Shown in pieces: positions 38,692 to 47,620 of a stretch of DNA of 64,000 bases. Below the pieces are notes generated by a model that was given only the letters and a program-made list of their open reading frames with translations, had not been told where the DNA came from and did no database searches. Both the position numbers and the translations under genes were made by a program. The DNA is from Archangiaceae bacterium (GTDB lineage Bacteria; Myxococcota; Myxococcia; Myxococcales; Myxococcaceae): positions 1 through 64,000 of the forward strand of contig JAACJQ010000091.1 in the NCBI GenBank assembly GCA_016879935.1, in the 5' to 3' direction. Each line of letters begins with the position of its first letter. The stretch's first letter is position 1.

Positions 38692-39474
38692 TCAGCGATC
38701 GAGCTTCTTCAGCGTGCTCGCGGCGGCGAGGGCACTGATCGAGGCGAGCCCCATCGGCAGACACCCGACGAGCAGGCACGCGCCGCCGACGCCCAGCGGA
38801 ATCATCGACAGCACCGCCGCGACGGGGCCGAGCAGACCGATGGCTCCGAGGCGCTGCAACCACGTGACGTTGGTCGCGCGCGGGCGTTTGAGCTGCACCG
38901 TCGCCGCGAGCGCGATGGCGTGCACTGACATCAGCGCCGTGGGCAGCGCGAAGAGCAGGTCTCGCAGGTCGAGCGACAGGAGCGAGGCGAGGACGAACAG
39001 CGTCGCCGGCACGTTGAGGAGCGCCGAGAACACGGCGAGCACCCAGGTGACGTTGAGCCAGGCCGTGCCGCCGCCGGGCGTGTGCTCCCGCACGTACTGC
39101 AGGTCTTCTGGCGTCAGCTCGAGCGCGTACGGGTAGCCCAGCTCGAGCCACGTCGAGAGCGCAGCGGCGCGGCAGGGCCAGTCATTCTGATCTCGAGCAC
39201 GCTCGAGCACCGGGAGGCCCGCCAGCTCACGAAGGAACTCGAACACCGCGCGCGTGGAGTGTCTCGCGAGCCCGGTGATGGAGCGGTTGAGCGAGGTCGC
39301 GAGCTCGACGCTGCGGGGCGCCTCTTCGAGCCTGACGAGCAGCGCCCTCACGCGTGAGAGTTCCTCGTCGACGGAGTCGAAGACGGGGTCGGCCTGAACC
39401 ACGCGCTGCTGCTCCTGCGTCACGCGTTCGAGTCTGCCCGCAGCGAGCTCGTCAGTCAGCGGCCTCACCCGCAT
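38692..39474 (-). CDS. Membrane protein of unknown function, paralogue of the upstream gene
   Basis: The 260-residue protein pairs an N-terminal helical soluble part with several membrane segments in the second half (for example SALLNVPATLFVLASLLS and LGPVAAVLSMIPLGVGGACLLVG). It shares a clear homologous block with the adjacent gene: LATSLNRSITGLAR, CRAAALSTWLELGYPYALELTPEDL, VREHTPGGGTAWLN. No known family was recognised. It overlaps the upstream paralogue by 23 bases, and is last in the four-gene operon. Confidence 0.75.
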   Translation of the reverse strand: MRVRPLTDELAAGRLERVTQEQQRVVQADPVFDSVDEELSRVRALLVRLEEAPRSVELATSLNRSITGLARHSTRAVFEFLRELAGLPVLERARDQNDWPCRAAALSTWLELGYPYALELTPEDLQYVREHTPGGGTAWLNVTWVLAVFSALLNVPATLFVLASLLSLDLRDLLFALPTALMSVHAIALAATVQLKRPRATNVTWLQRLGAIGLLGPVAAVLSMIPLGVGGACLLVGCLPMGLASISALAAASTLKKLDR

Positions 39475-40171
39475 GGGCGGCGAGCCGGCCCATCGCCCAC
39501 GCCAACAGCTGTGGTGCGAACCAGGCGAGCATGCCCAACGGGCTTTCGGCAACCGCCAGCAGCGCCAACGCCATGGGAAGCAGCCACTCGATGCGCGTGA
39601 ACCGGCGCAGTCGATCGACGACGAAGGAGCCTTCGAGGCCCGCCCAACTCGCCCGCGCCAGCCCCACGGCGTGCGCCGCATTGAGCATCGGCACCGGCGC
39701 CAGAATTAGGAAGGCGGGAGAGACGATGAACCCGAGCGCCACCGCCGCCACGACGACGCCGAGGTTCTGCAGGGCGGTGATGGCGGCGAACACGAAGGTG
39801 AGGTTGAGCCAGCCGTTCGCGTCGCCGCGTCTGTGCCCCCGAACGAACTCCAGCTCTTCGGGGGTGACCTCGAGGGCCCACGGGTAGCCGAGCTTGAGAC
39901 GCGTGGCGATTGCCGCCGCGCGGCACGACCAGCCCTTCGAGTCCTGCGCCTGCCGCAACCCCTCGAGGCCCGACAGCTCGCGGAGCAGCTCCGACACGTC
40001 ACGGCTCGGCGTTCTGGCGAGGCCGACGATGGCCTGGTTCAACGAGGTGGCGAGCGAACGATCGTGTGGCGCCGCTTCGAGACGCTCGAGCAGCAGTCGC
40101 ACCCGGCCGAGCGCTTCGTCTGCTTCGGTGTCTGCGGTCGGGGCCTGGCCCTCGGTGACCCTCGTGCTCAT
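39452..40171 (-). CDS. Membrane protein of unknown function, first of a tandem paralogue pair
   Basis: The 239-residue protein has an N-terminal soluble helical region (about 1-120) with LATSLNQAIVGLAR and CRAAAIATRLKLGYPWALEVTPEEL, closely like the following gene. Hydrophobic membrane segments follow (for example VVVAAVALGFIVSPAFLIL). The tail retains charged residues. ATG 40171 overlaps the stop of the Nudix-MBL gene (TGATG), so translation is coupled. The function is unknown. Its duplication with the next gene suggests a paired or heteromeric membrane component. Confidence 0.75.
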   Translation of the reverse strand: MSTRVTEGQAPTADTEADEALGRVRLLLERLEAAPHDRSLATSLNQAIVGLARTPSRDVSELLRELSGLEGLRQAQDSKGWSCRAAAIATRLKLGYPWALEVTPEELEFVRGHRRGDANGWLNLTFVFAAITALQNLGVVVAAVALGFIVSPAFLILAPVPMLNAAHAVGLARASWAGLEGSFVVDRLRRFTRIEWLLPMALALLAVAESPLGMLAWFAPQLLAWAMGRLAAHAGEAAD

Positions 40172-41679
40172 CACGCAGCCCTGAACTTGCCCTCGTGCGC
40201 CAGCACGCGCGCCTCACCGACCAGCTTGTGCAGAATCGCGACGGTGTTGCGCTCGGCCAGCGGCCAGATGAACGCGCCCACGTCGTCGTACGCGCGCGGA
40301 ACGATCTCGTCGAGGCCGACCGGCAGGCTGAACGAGCGCACTGCCTCGAGCACCTTCGCTTCACGCCACGCGCGGTGCGCCAGGTACTCCTCGAGCTTCG
40401 CGACGCCATCGGAGATGACGGGGCCGTGCGAGGGGTAGAGCGCACCGAGCGGCAGTTCGCGCAGGCGCTCGAGCTGCTTCAGGTACACCGCCATGTCGCC
40501 TTCGGGCGGGTCGATGACGATGGTGCTCACCGTCGACACCATGTCGCCCACGATGCCCGCACGAGAGCGCTCGTCGACGAGACAGAGGTGGCCCGCGGCG
40601 TGCCCAGGCGTGTGCAGCACCTTCCACGTCATGGGGAGCGGGCCGTCGAGCGTGAGGCGCTCTCCGTCGGCGAGCAGGCGAGCGACCTTCACGGGTGCGC
40701 GATCGGCCGTACGCGCGTGCGCCCACACTGGCAGCTTCAACGCCTCCGAGACGAACTTCACGCCACCGACGTGGTCGCCGTGGTGATGACTGAGCACGAT
40801 GGCTTTGGGTTCGTACCCGTCGGCCATCAGCTCGTGCACGACCGTCACCAGCTTCTGGCACTCGTCGTCGTCGGGAGAGCCGGGGTCGACGATGAGCAGC
40901 TCCTTCGTGCCGAGCAGGTACGCGTTCGTGTGCGTCGCGGGCGGCAGCGTCGGCGTCAGCAACGGCACGATGTGCACGCCGCGCTGAAACTCGATGTGCC
41001 TCGCGAGGTGGTTCTCGCACCACGGCGGGTTCGACAGGCGCGCCACGGCGTCGTCGGAGCTCGTGAAGCCTGCCATCACCCGCAGCGCATGCAGGTTGGG
41101 TGGGTGGAGCAACGCGCTGCCCTGCTCCCAGCGCTGGAGCGCCTCGCCCGGCCGAATCCACTCGCCACTCGCGAGCTCTCCGGGCCACACCGACGCGAGC
41201 TGTCCCTCGGGCGCCTCGACGAGGAAGAAGCGCGCGTCGAACCGCACCGGCAGATAAGGCGGCGTCACCCAACGCCCGGCCACGCGAAAGTCACTCGCGA
41301 AGAGCTGCAGGCCCCGCTCCGTGAGCCCCGCGCCGAAGTCCGCGCCGCCGAGCAGCGCTTTGCGAAAGACGTCGAGCTCGGCGACCTCGGGCCCGCGCGC
41401 GACCAGCAGGCCCGTCTCTTCGAACAGCTCCCGCGCCGCCGTGACGATGAGCCTCGCGTCGTCTCCGCTCGCGCCCTGCACCGGCACCTTCGCGTCGGCC
41501 GCGTCGACCTTGCCGCCGGGGAATGCATAGAAGCCGCCGGCGAACGAGAGCCGCTGCTCGCGCTCCAGCCAGAAGACCTCGACGCCGGTGCTGACCCGCC
41601 GGAAGACGATGACGGCTGACGCATCACGCGGCGGCTTTCCGGGAGGCGGCGGCGGCAGGCCTGCGATGGCTTCACTCAT
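40171..41679 (-). CDS. Nudix hydrolase fused to an MBL-fold hydrolase
   Basis: The 502-residue protein has a Nudix domain at about 20-200. Its box begins YAFPGGKVDA and ends ARELFEETGLL, with about 15 extra residues between the GG and the RE-EE-G part, as in NUDT19-type proteins. From about 235 there is a metallo-beta-lactamase domain with SHHHGDHVGG, a THTNAYLLG entry and HTPGHAAGHLCLVDE, closest to LACTB2-type hydrolases. Nudix parts cleave nucleoside-diphosphate-linked compounds; MBL parts hydrolyse phosphoesters or thioesters. Fusions of this kind are known but uncharacterised. It starts 8 bases inside the HD gene's 3' end. Confidence 0.85.
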   Translation of the reverse strand: MSEAIAGLPPPPPGKPPRDASAVIVFRRVSTGVEVFWLEREQRLSFAGGFYAFPGGKVDAADAKVPVQGASGDDARLIVTAARELFEETGLLVARGPEVAELDVFRKALLGGADFGAGLTERGLQLFASDFRVAGRWVTPPYLPVRFDARFFLVEAPEGQLASVWPGELASGEWIRPGEALQRWEQGSALLHPPNLHALRVMAGFTSSDDAVARLSNPPWCENHLARHIEFQRGVHIVPLLTPTLPPATHTNAYLLGTKELLIVDPGSPDDDECQKLVTVVHELMADGYEPKAIVLSHHHGDHVGGVKFVSEALKLPVWAHARTADRAPVKVARLLADGERLTLDGPLPMTWKVLHTPGHAAGHLCLVDERSRAGIVGDMVSTVSTIVIDPPEGDMAVYLKQLERLRELPLGALYPSHGPVISDGVAKLEEYLAHRAWREAKVLEAVRSFSLPVGLDEIVPRAYDDVGAFIWPLAERNTVAILHKLVGEARVLAHEGKFRAA

Positions 41680-42955
41680 CGGCGTGGGCTCCCGTCAGCT
41701 TCGCCACGAGCGGCCTGGCGATGTCGACCTGGTCGGGGCGCACGAAGATGCGCGAGAGCAACACAGCTCCAGCGAAGCGTTGGTAGAGCGGTGTGTACGC
41801 CGAGACCTCGGTGAGGCGCCCGCTCGCGGAGTCGTGCACGCAGAGCGACGGCGTCTCGCCCTCGTCGGTGTACCGCGACAGCACGCCTCGCGACTCGAGC
41901 GTGAAGTGTTCGACACCCGCCACGTCGAGCGCCTTCGAGATCTCGGCCATGTCGTAGTCGGTGTCGCGCTCGGTGAACTGCGCCACGCGGCGAAAGCCCT
42001 TTCGCGTCACGATGCGCTCGGCCCAGCGGTTCTTCGACTTGCGCAGCGTCGTCCACAACGAGACGTCGTCACACCAGAGGAACGCGTCGGGGTCGGCGGG
42101 AATCTCGAACTCGCCCGGCGCCTCCTCGTAGTAGCGCTTGAGCATCCAATCGAAGCTCACCGAGGTGTGGTGGTAATAGACCGAGAGGAACATGTGGTAC
42201 CGGCTCAGCAGGAAGTCTTCGAACGCGAAGACCGCTGCCTTCGAGAGTGCCAGCACCGCCCGCCCGTCACGCTCCGCGCACCGCAGGTTCTGCAGAATCC
42301 ACTCGATGTCGTACCGGCCGTAGTTCACGCCCGTGTAGAACGAGTCGCGCTGCAGGTAGTCCATGCGGTCGGCGTCGAGCTCTCCCGACACGAGCGCGCG
42401 CAACAGCGGCGTCCAGTCGAGGCCACCGTCGCGAAAGCCCTCGACGCCGGCAGGCAGCCGACCCGTGACGAGGCCGGCGATGAGCTCGGGCGTGATGCCG
42501 TGGCGCGCGTAGACCTTCGAGAGAATCGGGGTGAGCGAGCTGTCGAGCAGCAGCTTCGCCGTGAAGTCTTCGTGCGAGGCCTGGCCCGAGTCGTCCCCCG
42601 TCCACGCGGGGAGCTTCAGCACCGAGCGCTGCGGCGCGATGGACTCCGACGCGTGGGACAACGGCATGTGGCCGAGGTCGTGGCAGAGCACCGCCAGGCG
42701 CACCGCGGCGCGGAAGCGCTCCCTGGAAGCCTCGGTCAAACTCGAGCGACTCGCGACCGCGTCGAAGAGACGTGAAGCGACGTGCATCGCGCCGAGTGAG
42801 TGGGCGTGCCGGGTGTGTGTGGCGCCGGGGAACGCGAGGTCACCGAAGCCGAGCTGCCGCACGCTGCGCAGCCGCTGGAAGAAGCGGCTGTCGATGATGG
42901 GCTTCTCGTCGTCGGTGACCGTGATGGAGCCGTGAATCGGGTCGCGAATTCTCAC
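41672..42955 (-). CDS. HD domain phosphohydrolase (SAMHD1/dGTPase-like)
   Basis: The 427-residue protein starts at GTG 42955 with VRIRDPIHGSITV, typical of this group. It carries the metal-binding HD signature: THTRHAHSLG, then CHDLGHMPLSHASE, and the Asp of SGELDADRMDYLQRD. This matches SAMHD1/deoxynucleotide triphosphohydrolase-like HD proteins, which often degrade dNTPs or signalling nucleotides. The N-terminal frame extends to 43054 without a plausible start. It is the first gene of the four-gene overlapping operon with the Nudix-MBL gene and two membrane proteins. The actual substrate is unknown. Confidence 0.88.
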   Translation of the reverse strand: MRIRDPIHGSITVTDDEKPIIDSRFFQRLRSVRQLGFGDLAFPGATHTRHAHSLGAMHVASRLFDAVASRSSLTEASRERFRAAVRLAVLCHDLGHMPLSHASESIAPQRSVLKLPAWTGDDSGQASHEDFTAKLLLDSSLTPILSKVYARHGITPELIAGLVTGRLPAGVEGFRDGGLDWTPLLRALVSGELDADRMDYLQRDSFYTGVNYGRYDIEWILQNLRCAERDGRAVLALSKAAVFAFEDFLLSRYHMFLSVYYHHTSVSFDWMLKRYYEEAPGEFEIPADPDAFLWCDDVSLWTTLRKSKNRWAERIVTRKGFRRVAQFTERDTDYDMAEISKALDVAGVEHFTLESRGVLSRYTDEGETPSLCVHDSASGRLTEVSAYTPLYQRFAGAVLLSRIFVRPDQVDIARPLVAKLTGAHADE

Positions 42956-42998: not shown

Positions 42999-43565
42999 TC
43001 ACTTCGCCTTGACGAGCTTCGGGCCCAGCGCCGTGGGCCGCTTGTCTTCAGCACCCATGTTGCCGTCGGCCGGCCGCGCCCCGAGCCACATCGAGGTGCC
43101 GTCGACCTTCAGCAGGTCGTACTCGCGACCGTACTTCTCGACGCTGGCGACGAACGAGCAGCCCGTCTTCGAGACGTCCTTCGCCTGGTTCGGCACCAGC
43201 CCGCAGCCGTCCATGCCGAAGTTCTTCGCGACCGCGTCGTCAGCCTTGAGGGTGATCTTCTTGCTGGCGAAGTCGAACGACGCCTCGCTCGCGCCAACCA
43301 CGGTCTCGGACGGCTTCGTCGCCTGCCACGGCCCCTCGAACTCCATCGCGAGGAGCGGGGTCTTCAGGGCCTGGTCTGCATGAATGGTGAAGGTGAGCCG
43401 CCAGCGCTTGTCGGTGAAGGTGAAGTCACGGGTGGCGAAGGAGCCATTGCCGAGGTCTTCGGCGGCCTCGCTCTTCCACCGGCCGGTGGCGAGCTTGCGA
43501 AGGTCGGGAGCAGCTTCTGCGAACGACGACAACGAGAGCACGGCGATCAGCACCAAGCGGGTCAT
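42999..43565 (-). CDS. Small exported protein of unknown function
   Basis: The 188-residue product begins with a Sec signal, MTRLVLIAVLSLSSFAEA, at ATG 43565. The mature part reads LATGRWKSEAAEDLGNGSFATRDF, followed by strand-rich sequence and two Cys (GCGLV and GCSFV). The start region is weakly reminiscent of APCDD1-type beta-barrel domains, but this is not secure. It is divergent from the LysR gene, with a palindrome in the 83-bp gap, so that regulator may control it. Confidence 0.65.
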   Translation of the reverse strand: MTRLVLIAVLSLSSFAEAAPDLRKLATGRWKSEAAEDLGNGSFATRDFTFTDKRWRLTFTIHADQALKTPLLAMEFEGPWQATKPSETVVGASEASFDFASKKITLKADDAVAKNFGMDGCGLVPNQAKDVSKTGCSFVASVEKYGREYDLLKVDGTSMWLGARPADGNMGAEDKRPTALGPKLVKAK

Positions 43566-44569: not shown

Positions 44570-44645
44570 GGCGCATCGCGACCAACTCGTGCTGCGTTTC
44601 ACTTCCGACGCGTCGATGGCGTGTGGTACGGACCTCGCCCACTCG

Positions 44646-45761
44646 ATGTTCGTCACGATTCTCCACAATCAGGACCACGCGCTGCTCGAAGACGACCCGG
44701 GTCGTGAAGCGCGCGCCGACGTGGTGAACGTGGCCGCCGCCATGGCCGACGCGCTCTCGGGTGGCCGGCGCCGCGTCGAGGTGAAGCCGGTCGACGACGT
44801 GGTGTCGCTCGCCGACGTGCTCACCTCGAAGCCCGACGTCGTGTTGAACCTGTGCGAGTCGCTCGGCGCCGACAGCCGCGGTGAATCGCTGGTGCCCGCG
44901 ATGCTCGAGCTCTCGGGCGTGTGCTTCACCGGCTCCTCGTCGCTCTCGCTCGCGCTGTCGCTGCACAAGAACAAGGCGAAGGAGATTCTGCGCGCGCGTG
45001 GCGTGCCGACGCCCGGCGCGGTCGTCATCTCGCGCATCGAAGAGCTCGTCGGCGTCGACCTCGCCTTTCCGCTCATCGTGAAGCCGTCGCGTGAAGACGC
45101 CTCGGTGGGCATCGACTTCGACTCCGTCGTTCACGACCGCGCGAGCCTGGGCAAAGCCGTCAACCGCGTGCTGCGCACCTTCCGCCAGCCGGTGCTCGTC
45201 GAGCAGTTCATCGATGGCCGCGAGATCTACGTGCCGCTGCTGGGCAACGAAGGCCGCCGCGCGCTGCCGCTCACCGAGATTCAGTTCGGGGCCGCGTTCG
45301 CCGACAAGCCGCGCATCGTCTCGTACGAGGCGAAGTGGAACACCGAATCTCCCATCTGCATCGACAGCCCTTCGCGGCTCGTCGAGCTGCCCGAGAAGCT
45401 CCGGGCCCGCTGTGTCGACGTCGCGCTCGCGGCGTTCGATGCGCTCGAGTGCCGTGACTACGGCCGCGTCGACGTGCGCCTCGACTCGAAGAACGAGCCG
45501 TGGGTCATCGACATCAACCCCAACTGCGACCTGCACCCGCAGGCCGGCTTCGCCCGCTCCGCGCTCGCGGCGGGTCTCTCATACGGCGATCTCGCGCTGC
45601 ACCTCGTCGAGCTCGCTCAGGAACGCCACCATGGACATCCGACCCGTCGTCTCGCAGGACCGGACGCAGCTCGAAGGGCTGCTGCGCCGCATCGAGACGT
45701 TCACGGCCGACGAGGTGGACTGCGCGCTCGAGCTGATCGACGGCGCCAGCCAGCCGAATAA
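44646..45761 (+). CDS. D-Ala-D-Ala ligase-like ATP-grasp protein
   Basis: The 371-residue frame encodes an ATP-grasp enzyme: VVLNLCESLGADSRGES near the start, FTGSSSLSLALSLHKNKAKE, VKPSREDASVG (ATP loop), LVEQFIDGREIYV, and GRVDVRLDSKNEPWVIDINPNCD with the metal-binding Asp/Asn. D-Ala-D-Ala ligase-like enzymes form peptide bonds using ATP; the acceptor is unknown. After AQERHHG (about 330) the frame runs about 40 residues further, overlapping the next gene by 131 bases, with Arg/Ala-rich shadow-like sequence. The true C terminus may be earlier or the gene may have lost its stop. Confidence 0.8.
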   Translation: MFVTILHNQDHALLEDDPGREARADVVNVAAAMADALSGGRRRVEVKPVDDVVSLADVLTSKPDVVLNLCESLGADSRGESLVPAMLELSGVCFTGSSSLSLALSLHKNKAKEILRARGVPTPGAVVISRIEELVGVDLAFPLIVKPSREDASVGIDFDSVVHDRASLGKAVNRVLRTFRQPVLVEQFIDGREIYVPLLGNEGRRALPLTEIQFGAAFADKPRIVSYEAKWNTESPICIDSPSRLVELPEKLRARCVDVALAAFDALECRDYGRVDVRLDSKNEPWVIDINPNCDLHPQAGFARSALAAGLSYGDLALHLVELAQERHHGHPTRRLAGPDAARRAAAPHRDVHGRRGGLRARADRRRQPAE

Positions 45762-46098
45762 CAAGGACTACCAGGTGCTCGTCGCCGCGCGCGACGGGAA
45801 GATCGTCGGCTACGTCTGCTACGGCCCCACGCCGATGACCGATGGCACCTTCGACCTCTACTGGATCGCGTCGGACCCGAACGTGCGTGGCCAGGGCGTC
45901 GGTGCGGCGCTGGTGAGCGCGATGGAAGGCGACATTCGCCGCCGCAAGGGCCGCATCATTCGCGTCGAGACGAGCGCGCTCGAAGCCTACGGCCCGACCC
46001 GCGGCTTCTACGCGGCCATGCAGTACAAAGAAGAGTCGCGGTTTCGCGACTTCTACAAGCCGGGCGAAGACCTGATCATCCTCGCCAAGCGCATGTGA
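45631..46098 (+). CDS. GNAT family N-acetyltransferase
   Basis: The 155-residue protein has the GNAT acetyl-CoA motif DPNVRGQGVGAALVSAME (the R/Q-x-x-G-x-G/A core) plus the upstream strand TFDLYWIA and the C-terminal VETSALEAYGPTRGFYAAMQY. It transfers an acyl group from CoA to an amine. Its start lies inside the 3' end of the ATP-grasp gene, and the two probably act on one small molecule or peptide. The substrate is unknown. Confidence 0.88.
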   Translation: MDIRPVVSQDRTQLEGLLRRIETFTADEVDCALELIDGASQPNNKDYQVLVAARDGKIVGYVCYGPTPMTDGTFDLYWIASDPNVRGQGVGAALVSAMEGDIRRRKGRIIRVETSALEAYGPTRGFYAAMQYKEESRFRDFYKPGEDLIILAKRM

Positions 46099-46183
46099 AT
46101 TCGACCCACGCCTGACCGTCAGGCGGAGCGTGGCCCTCGTCGAACCAGCCAGCCCGAAAGCCCGTGGTAGCGTGCGCCCACTC

Positions 46184-47616
46184 ATGCGCCGCATCGTCAC
46201 GCTCGCCCTCCTCCTCGTCAGCTCCTTCGCGTTCGCGCAGAAGGCCGCGCCGCTCTCCGACGCGCTCACCGTCTCGCGCCCGAAAGAGGGCGAGTACTTC
46301 GGCGTCTACCTGCAGAACCAGAAGGTCGGGTGGATGTACGTGTCGGTGAAGCTGAACGCGGCCGGCGACCAGGCCATCAGCCTCAACGAGCTGCACTTCC
46401 GCGCGAAGGTCGGCACGCGAATCAGCGAGCGCGTGATGCGCGAGACGAAGGTGTTCGAAGCCAGGCCGGGCGGCAAGCTGCTGTCGCTGCGCCTCGAGCA
46501 ATCGGGTGACGGCGGCGACCAGACGCTCGACGGCCTCGTGGTGAAAGAGGGGCTGAAGATCATTCGCACGCGCCCCGGCCAGAAGGACGACACGCTGATG
46601 CTCGCGATGCCGAAAGAGGTCGTCGAAGACGCCGACCAGGCGCGCGTGGCGCTCAAACGCAACGCGCCGTTCGAGGGCATCATCACCGACACCACCGACC
46701 TCAAGCAGTACCCGGTGCGCACCACCGTCGGTGAGACCGAGACCCGCACGATTCGCGGCGTGAAGGTGAAGCTGAAGCGCGCCATCACCATCAGCGAGAA
46801 GGAGAAGGTGCCGACCGAGGCCTTCGTCGACGAGCAGGGCCGCATGGTCGAGGTGCGCTTCGGGCCGACGATGATGGCGATGCGCGAGGCAGAAGATCAG
46901 GCCAAGCGGTTCGACCTCGTCGAGGTGTTCGCGCTCACCCGCGTGAAGCTGCCGAAGCCGCCGCCGCCCGAGGTGCGCTCGATTCCCGGCTCGATGACGA
47001 TGGTGATGAGCGGGCTGCCCGAGCGGTTCCAGGTGCAGACGTACCGGCAGAGCTACGAGAAGATCGACGACAAGCGCGTGGCGGTGAAGCTGTCGGCCGC
47101 GCTGCCGAAGACGAAGCTGGTGCGACCGCTGGCCGACCCGAACGGTGGCAAGAACCTCGAGAGCGACATCGTGGTCGAGGCGGCGGCGCCCGAGATCGTG
47201 AAGCAGGCCAAACTCATCGTCGGCAACGAGAAGGACGCGTACGCGGCGGCCAAGAAGATCGGCAAGTGGGTGAACGAGCACCTCGTGAAGGACTACGGCT
47301 CGTCGAGCGATCGCGCGACCGACGTGCTCAAGACGATGAAGGGAGACTGCACCGAGCACTCGCTGCTGACGGTCGCGTTGCTCCGGGCCGCCGGCATTCC
47401 CGCGCGGCGCGTCGATGGCGTGGTGTACCTGATGAACGAAGACCAGGTGCCGGCGCTCTACTGGCACGAGTGGGTCGAGGCCTACGTCGGAGAGTGGACG
47501 CAGCTCGACCCGACCTTCGGCCAGGACGTCGCCGACGCCACGCACTTCAAGGTTGGTGAAGAAGGCAGCGCCGAGATCACGCCCCTCATCGGCAGCCTCG
47601 TCGTCACCGACGTGCG

Positions 47617-47620
<4 letters not shown>
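46184..47620 (+). CDS. Exported transglutaminase-like protein
   Basis: The 478-residue protein has a signal peptide (MRRIVTLALLLVSSFAFA) and a C-terminal transglutaminase core: MKGDCTEHSLLTVALLRAAG with the catalytic Cys, YWHEWVEAYVG with His, and LDPTFGQD with Asp. Between is a beta-rich region of about 330 residues without a recognised domain. Bacterial transglutaminase-like proteins often act as proteases or peptide ligases. The stop overlaps the following kinase start (GTGA), so the two genes are probably coupled; a link between secreted enzyme and kinase is inference. Confidence 0.88.

Follow-up and report, generated by a model that had tools for sequence, protein, structure and literature searches.

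A conserved gene pair for an HD phosphohydrolase and a Nudix-metallo-beta-lactamase fusion in a myxobacterial family, with genus-limited membrane-protein genes behind it

Gene content and layout of the locus

Four adjoining genes on the minus strand of the window (i.e. the whole stretch of 64,000 nucleotides that was analysed) encode an HD protein, a fusion of a Nudix and a metallo-beta-lactamase (MBL) domain, and two membrane proteins, referred to here as MEM1 and MEM2. These genes and two of their neighbours are arranged as follows.

38692..39474, minus strand: MEM2, a paralogue of MEM1; alternative start at GTG 39423
39452..40171, minus strand: MEM1, a membrane protein with no Pfam family; soluble helical domain of ~110 aa and ~3-4 TM helices
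40171..41679, minus strand: Nudix-MBL fusion, 502 aa; Nudix, metallo-beta-lactamase and winged-helix (BLACT_WH) domains
41672..42955, minus strand: HD protein, 427 aa, GTG start; resembles COG1078/EF1143/SAMHD1-like dNTP triphosphohydrolases
42999..43565, minus strand: secreted 188-aa protein, 43 nt upstream of HD; occupies this site in only some members of the genus
44616..45761, plus strand: ATP-grasp (D-Ala-D-Ala ligase-like) protein, divergent from the HD/Nudix-MBL pair; conserved neighbour across the host's family

An original prediction had proposed this set of four genes and its domain make-up (i.e. an HD protein, a Nudix-MBL fusion and membrane paralogues). All of the ORFs were found at these coordinates on the minus strand, the same four were chosen by an independent gene caller based on a codon-usage model, and Pfam matches agreed with the domain assignments. 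MEM1 and MEM2 exhibited 43% identity (E = 7e-44) and are, as judged from this similarity, true paralogues.

Overlaps of 8, 1 and 23 nt had also been proposed, and the first two were found as predicted. The 8-nt overlap between the HD and Nudix-MBL genes (41672-41679) is robust, because comparable overlaps were observed in related genomes (-8 in G003, G005 and G006, -11 in G001 and -4 in G002). Because the start of Nudix-MBL lies within the 3' end of the HD gene, translation of these two genes is probably coupled. The Nudix-MBL and MEM1 genes overlap by 1 nt when MEM1 begins at ATG 40171, or by 4 nt when it begins at GTG 40174. For MEM1 and MEM2, the 23-nt overlap hinges on a MEM2 start at ATG 39474 and is doubtful, because the MEM homologues that occupy this site in G001, G003, G005 and G006 have V.QE or VEQQR-type N-termini that match the internal GTG at 39423 (VTQEQQRVV). 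A MEM2 start at this GTG, leaving a 28-nt gap after MEM1, is at least as likely, and the proposed MEM2 start codon is the one probable error in the predicted layout.

Upstream of the HD gene, the secreted 188-aa protein exhibited a sub-threshold match to APCDD1 (PF14921, 5e-5). Two genes for proteins of ~465 aa lie between the gene for this protein and HD in G003 and G005. Divergent ATP-grasp, GNAT and transglutaminase-like genes occupy positions 44616-47620. Within the family of the host (i.e. f1, whose named members include Myxococcus, Pyxidicoccus, Archangium and Hyalangium), the further conserved neighbours of the HD/Nudix-MBL pair are two of these genes, those for the ATP-grasp and transglutaminase-like proteins.

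Predicted activities of the HD and Nudix-MBL proteins

The HD protein matched the Pfam families HD (PF01966, 9e-7) and HD_assoc_2 (PF19276, 3e-11), the latter match being above the curated cut-off and marking an HD-associated C-terminal helical region. Comparison with the PDB gave matches over most of the protein to 2hek (5.5e-37), 2o6i (EF1143; 1.5e-29) and SAMHD1 (3e-22). The metal and catalytic residues (H52, H92-D93, H128 and D196) were near-invariant across 39 orthologues; H52, H92-D93, D196 and H128 align with H167, H206-D207, D311 and H233 of SAMHD1, respectively. The HD protein therefore shares with the COG1078/EF1143-SAMHD1 dNTPases a full-length match, the H/HD/D metal ligands and the catalytic histidine, but differs from them in being genetically linked to a Nudix-MBL gene. 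From this homology and the intact active site, the HD protein would most likely be a dNTP triphosphohydrolase that depends on metal and keeps the deoxynucleotide pool trimmed by converting dNTPs to deoxynucleosides and triphosphate.

Membership of the canonical dGTPase family (TIGR01353) was considered for the HD protein and rejected, as the score of 27.3 bits fell far below the cut-off of 152. The HD protein was the only dGTPase-like match in the host genome, where no canonical dGTPase was found. Families f5 and f9 are without HD, yet a canonical dGTPase is present in G039 and G043, and several genomes carry both genes. HD and canonical dGTPase have partly complementary distributions, and the presence of the canonical enzyme in these two members of HD-less families, together with its absence from the host, suggests that dGTPase-type activity is probably covered by the HD protein.

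Three Pfam domains were identified in the Nudix-MBL protein, namely NUDIX (8.7e-7, residues 21-185), Lactamase_B (7.8e-25, residues 249-418) and the BLACT_WH winged helix (PF17778; 7.1e-7, residues 457-496), with the NUDIX match above the cut-off and the winged-helix match above its curated cut-off. The nearest solved relatives were human LACTB2 (4ad9, 1.1e-21) and a bacterial Nudix hydrolase (3qsj, 1.6e-19). The MBL domain contains a complete two-metal site (HxHxDH + H + D + H) consisting of H298, H300, D302, H303, H360, D379 and H418, and both these residues and the catalytic residues of the Nudix domain were near-invariant among 34 orthologues. The Nudix box (GX5EX7REUXEEXGU) is present and is broken by an insert of ~13 residues in 31 of the 34 orthologues, an interruption that is a known trait of NUDT19. 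CoA diphosphatases are characterized by the NuCoA motif LLTXRSX3RX3GX3FPGG; a regular expression for this motif had no match in the Nudix domain, in which only R...GX3FPGG is kept. The Nudix domain is similar to NUDT19-type hydrolases, including the solved bacterial relative 3qsj, in having an insertion before REUXEEXGU and an FPGG motif, but is distinguished from them by the lack of the NuCoA motif, the length of the insert and fusion to an MBL domain. Similarly, the protein has the MBL core and C-terminal winged helix of LACTB2, with 4ad9 as its best PDB match, but contains an extra N-terminal Nudix domain.

The Nudix-MBL protein would most likely be a double-headed hydrolase acting on nucleotide-linked metabolites. 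The Nudix domain, which the interrupted box likens to NUDT19, would split the pyrophosphate bond of CoA or of another nucleoside-diphosphate-X, and the LACTB2-like MBL domain would hydrolyse a second bond, in either a CoA thioester or RNA. CoA as the substrate of the Nudix domain is a guess, because the classical NuCoA motif is absent. The same domains could also be those of an RNA-end processing enzyme, in which the Nudix domain takes off a metabolite cap (e.g. dephospho-CoA) and the RNA is cleaved by the LACTB2-like domain, although we regard this as unlikely. LACTB2, the best solved relative of the MBL domain and a carrier of the same winged helix, is an endoribonuclease (PMC4770246), and the free-CoA hydrolase NUDT19 can also strip dpCoA caps in vitro (PMC7337524). 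However, the link to NUDT19 was deduced for the Nudix domain solely from its interrupted Nudix box, and other relatives of the MBL domain hydrolyse thioesters. Coupling of such a one-polypeptide decapping nuclease to the dNTPase, such that the deoxynucleotide pool would be adjusted in step with RNA turnover, is very improbable.

Conservation of the HD/Nudix-MBL pair

The two hydrolase genes were searched for in 60 relatives and in 117 genomes of the phylum. Among the 64 f1 genomes holding both genes, 61 had Nudix-MBL directly behind HD, with strand and order the same and <150 bp between the genes; the three exceptions were an insertion (G018), a truncated match (G007) and a contig break (G009). 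Neighbouring but divergent genes, with 61 bp to 3.5 kb between them (20 kb in one f6 genome), were seen in families f4, f6 and f7, and elsewhere in the phylum the two are located on separate contigs or far apart. As the genes are mostly unlinked outside f1, their linkage is not universal. HD and Nudix-MBL are an old conserved gene pair within the family of the host. That two nucleotide-type hydrolases share one compact transcription unit, as had been claimed, was borne out by this conservation. The original prediction was to fall if its genes lay scattered in relatives; the hydrolase pair holds together, but the membrane genes do not stay with it and are usually found elsewhere.

Selective constraint was compared between the two closest genomes, where dN/dS was 0.018 for HD and 0.08 for Nudix-MBL as compared to 0.32 for MEM. 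HD is present as a single copy in nearly every f1 genome, in fixed synteny. This vertical conservation and the dN/dS of 0.018 speak for a housekeeping role and against an anti-phage defence cassette, in which a dNTPase effector would act with membrane proteins as in dGTPase defence or Clover; a defence system was rejected and is regarded as exceedingly improbable. The relatives of the HD protein do include defence dGTPases, but the match to the PADLOC dGTPase model (1.8e-6) is partial, covering residues 15-105. Clover is alike in that one of its parts, CloA, is an HD dNTPase (PMC12265719). Its second part is the nucleotidyltransferase CloB, whereas no CloB-type partner was found in the four genes or the scanned neighbours, and the HD locus exhibits conserved housekeeping synteny.

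Among the papers searched, none dealt with the HD/Nudix-MBL linkage, and nothing specific was found on a Nudix-MBL fusion or on a myxobacterial dNTPase operon. The linkage appears to be undescribed, although the enzymes themselves are ordinary. The mammalian counterparts of the two proteins are studied separately, and the family-wide association of the genes for a SAMHD1-type dNTPase and a NUDT19/LACTB2-type fusion suggests a functional link.

The MEM genes and their relation to the pair

No named family was found for MEM1 or MEM2 in Pfam, NCBIfam or PADLOC, or in the PDB using profiles. In an AlphaFold2 model of MEM1, the helical domain (residues 13-113) was mostly modelled with pLDDT >90 and the membrane part with low confidence. 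A Foldseek search with this model gave no significant match (best E 1.6). VIA-align gave Z scores of 6-7.5 between residues ~10-115 and HEAT/alphaRep-like helical repeats, and as this range is common among helical models, the soluble, presumably cytosolic, domain can only weakly be termed HEAT-like. As a guess, the MEM proteins may perhaps be membrane-bound protein-binding adaptors.

Members of the MEM family were detected by profile in 42 of 47 f1 genomes as compared to 0 of 70 others; MEM is an orphan membrane-protein family confined to Myxococcaceae. At this locus, MEM was found only in the genus of the window, in six of the seven genomes. G001, G003, G005 and G006 each had one copy and G004 had one that was strongly diverged; G002 lacked MEM here, and the gene was doubled only in the host. 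Wherever it is present at this site, the gene keeps its strand and its place close behind Nudix-MBL. The dN/dS of 0.32 between close relatives indicates that the MEM genes are truly coding but weakly constrained and fast-evolving.

In other genera, MEM relatives lie directly upstream of recA at 14 loci (L012, L013, L014, L015, L019, L020, L022, L023, L024, L028, L032, L034, L035 and L036), and other relatives lie near a SnoaL-like gene and further unrelated genes. When the neighbours of MEM genes were checked for shared partners, only recA, accompanied by sigma/anti-sigma neighbours, recurred across genera. The adjacency to recA does not recur in the genus of the window, and the contig carrying recA in the host genome contained no MEM match. 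An orphan family that is often found beside recA is a small, family-specific puzzle.

The original prediction had suggested that all four genes could form a module with a membrane part. In the most explicit form of this explanation, the HEAT-like domains of MEM1 and MEM2 would dock and regulate HD and Nudix-MBL in a membrane-anchored nucleotide-hydrolase module. The tight packing on the same strand, the position of MEM directly behind Nudix-MBL even for the diverged copy, and the suitability of a HEAT-like domain for protein binding are consistent with such a module. However, the enzyme pair is kept in every other genus with MEM absent from the locus, relatives of MEM accompany recA, the SnoaL-like gene and other unrelated genes, and the constraint on MEM is very different from that on the enzymes, all of which make a four-component module quite unlikely. 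As the MEM genes are genus-limited at this site, usually have other neighbours and evolve fast, there is no conserved four-gene module, and this part of the prediction was not upheld.

The locus is best explained, with a probability of roughly 0.6, as a two-enzyme housekeeping operon acting on the nucleotide/CoA pool with accessory membrane genes behind it. A MEM ancestor would have settled behind the pair in a single genus and would have undergone tandem duplication. MEM1 and MEM2 would probably be co-transcribed with the enzymes without being needed by them, and would have a separate membrane-linked function. Some functional link between MEM and the enzymes within the genus is possible, since place and strand are kept in six of the seven genomes.

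The MEM copies at this site formed one clade (100/95), in which MEM1 branched off ahead of MEM2 and the single copies found in other genomes. Given this early branching, the duplication may predate the species, with one copy lost elsewhere; alternatively, MEM1 may be evolving faster. Tandem MEM pairs arose separately in L029 (1168-2818) and L145 (8028-9645). Three further loci on host contigs C124 and C162 (i.e. L004, L005 and L006) encode proteins of 334-426 aa that share the LGYPWAL motif of the helical domain, followed by one TM helix and then a long C-terminal part.
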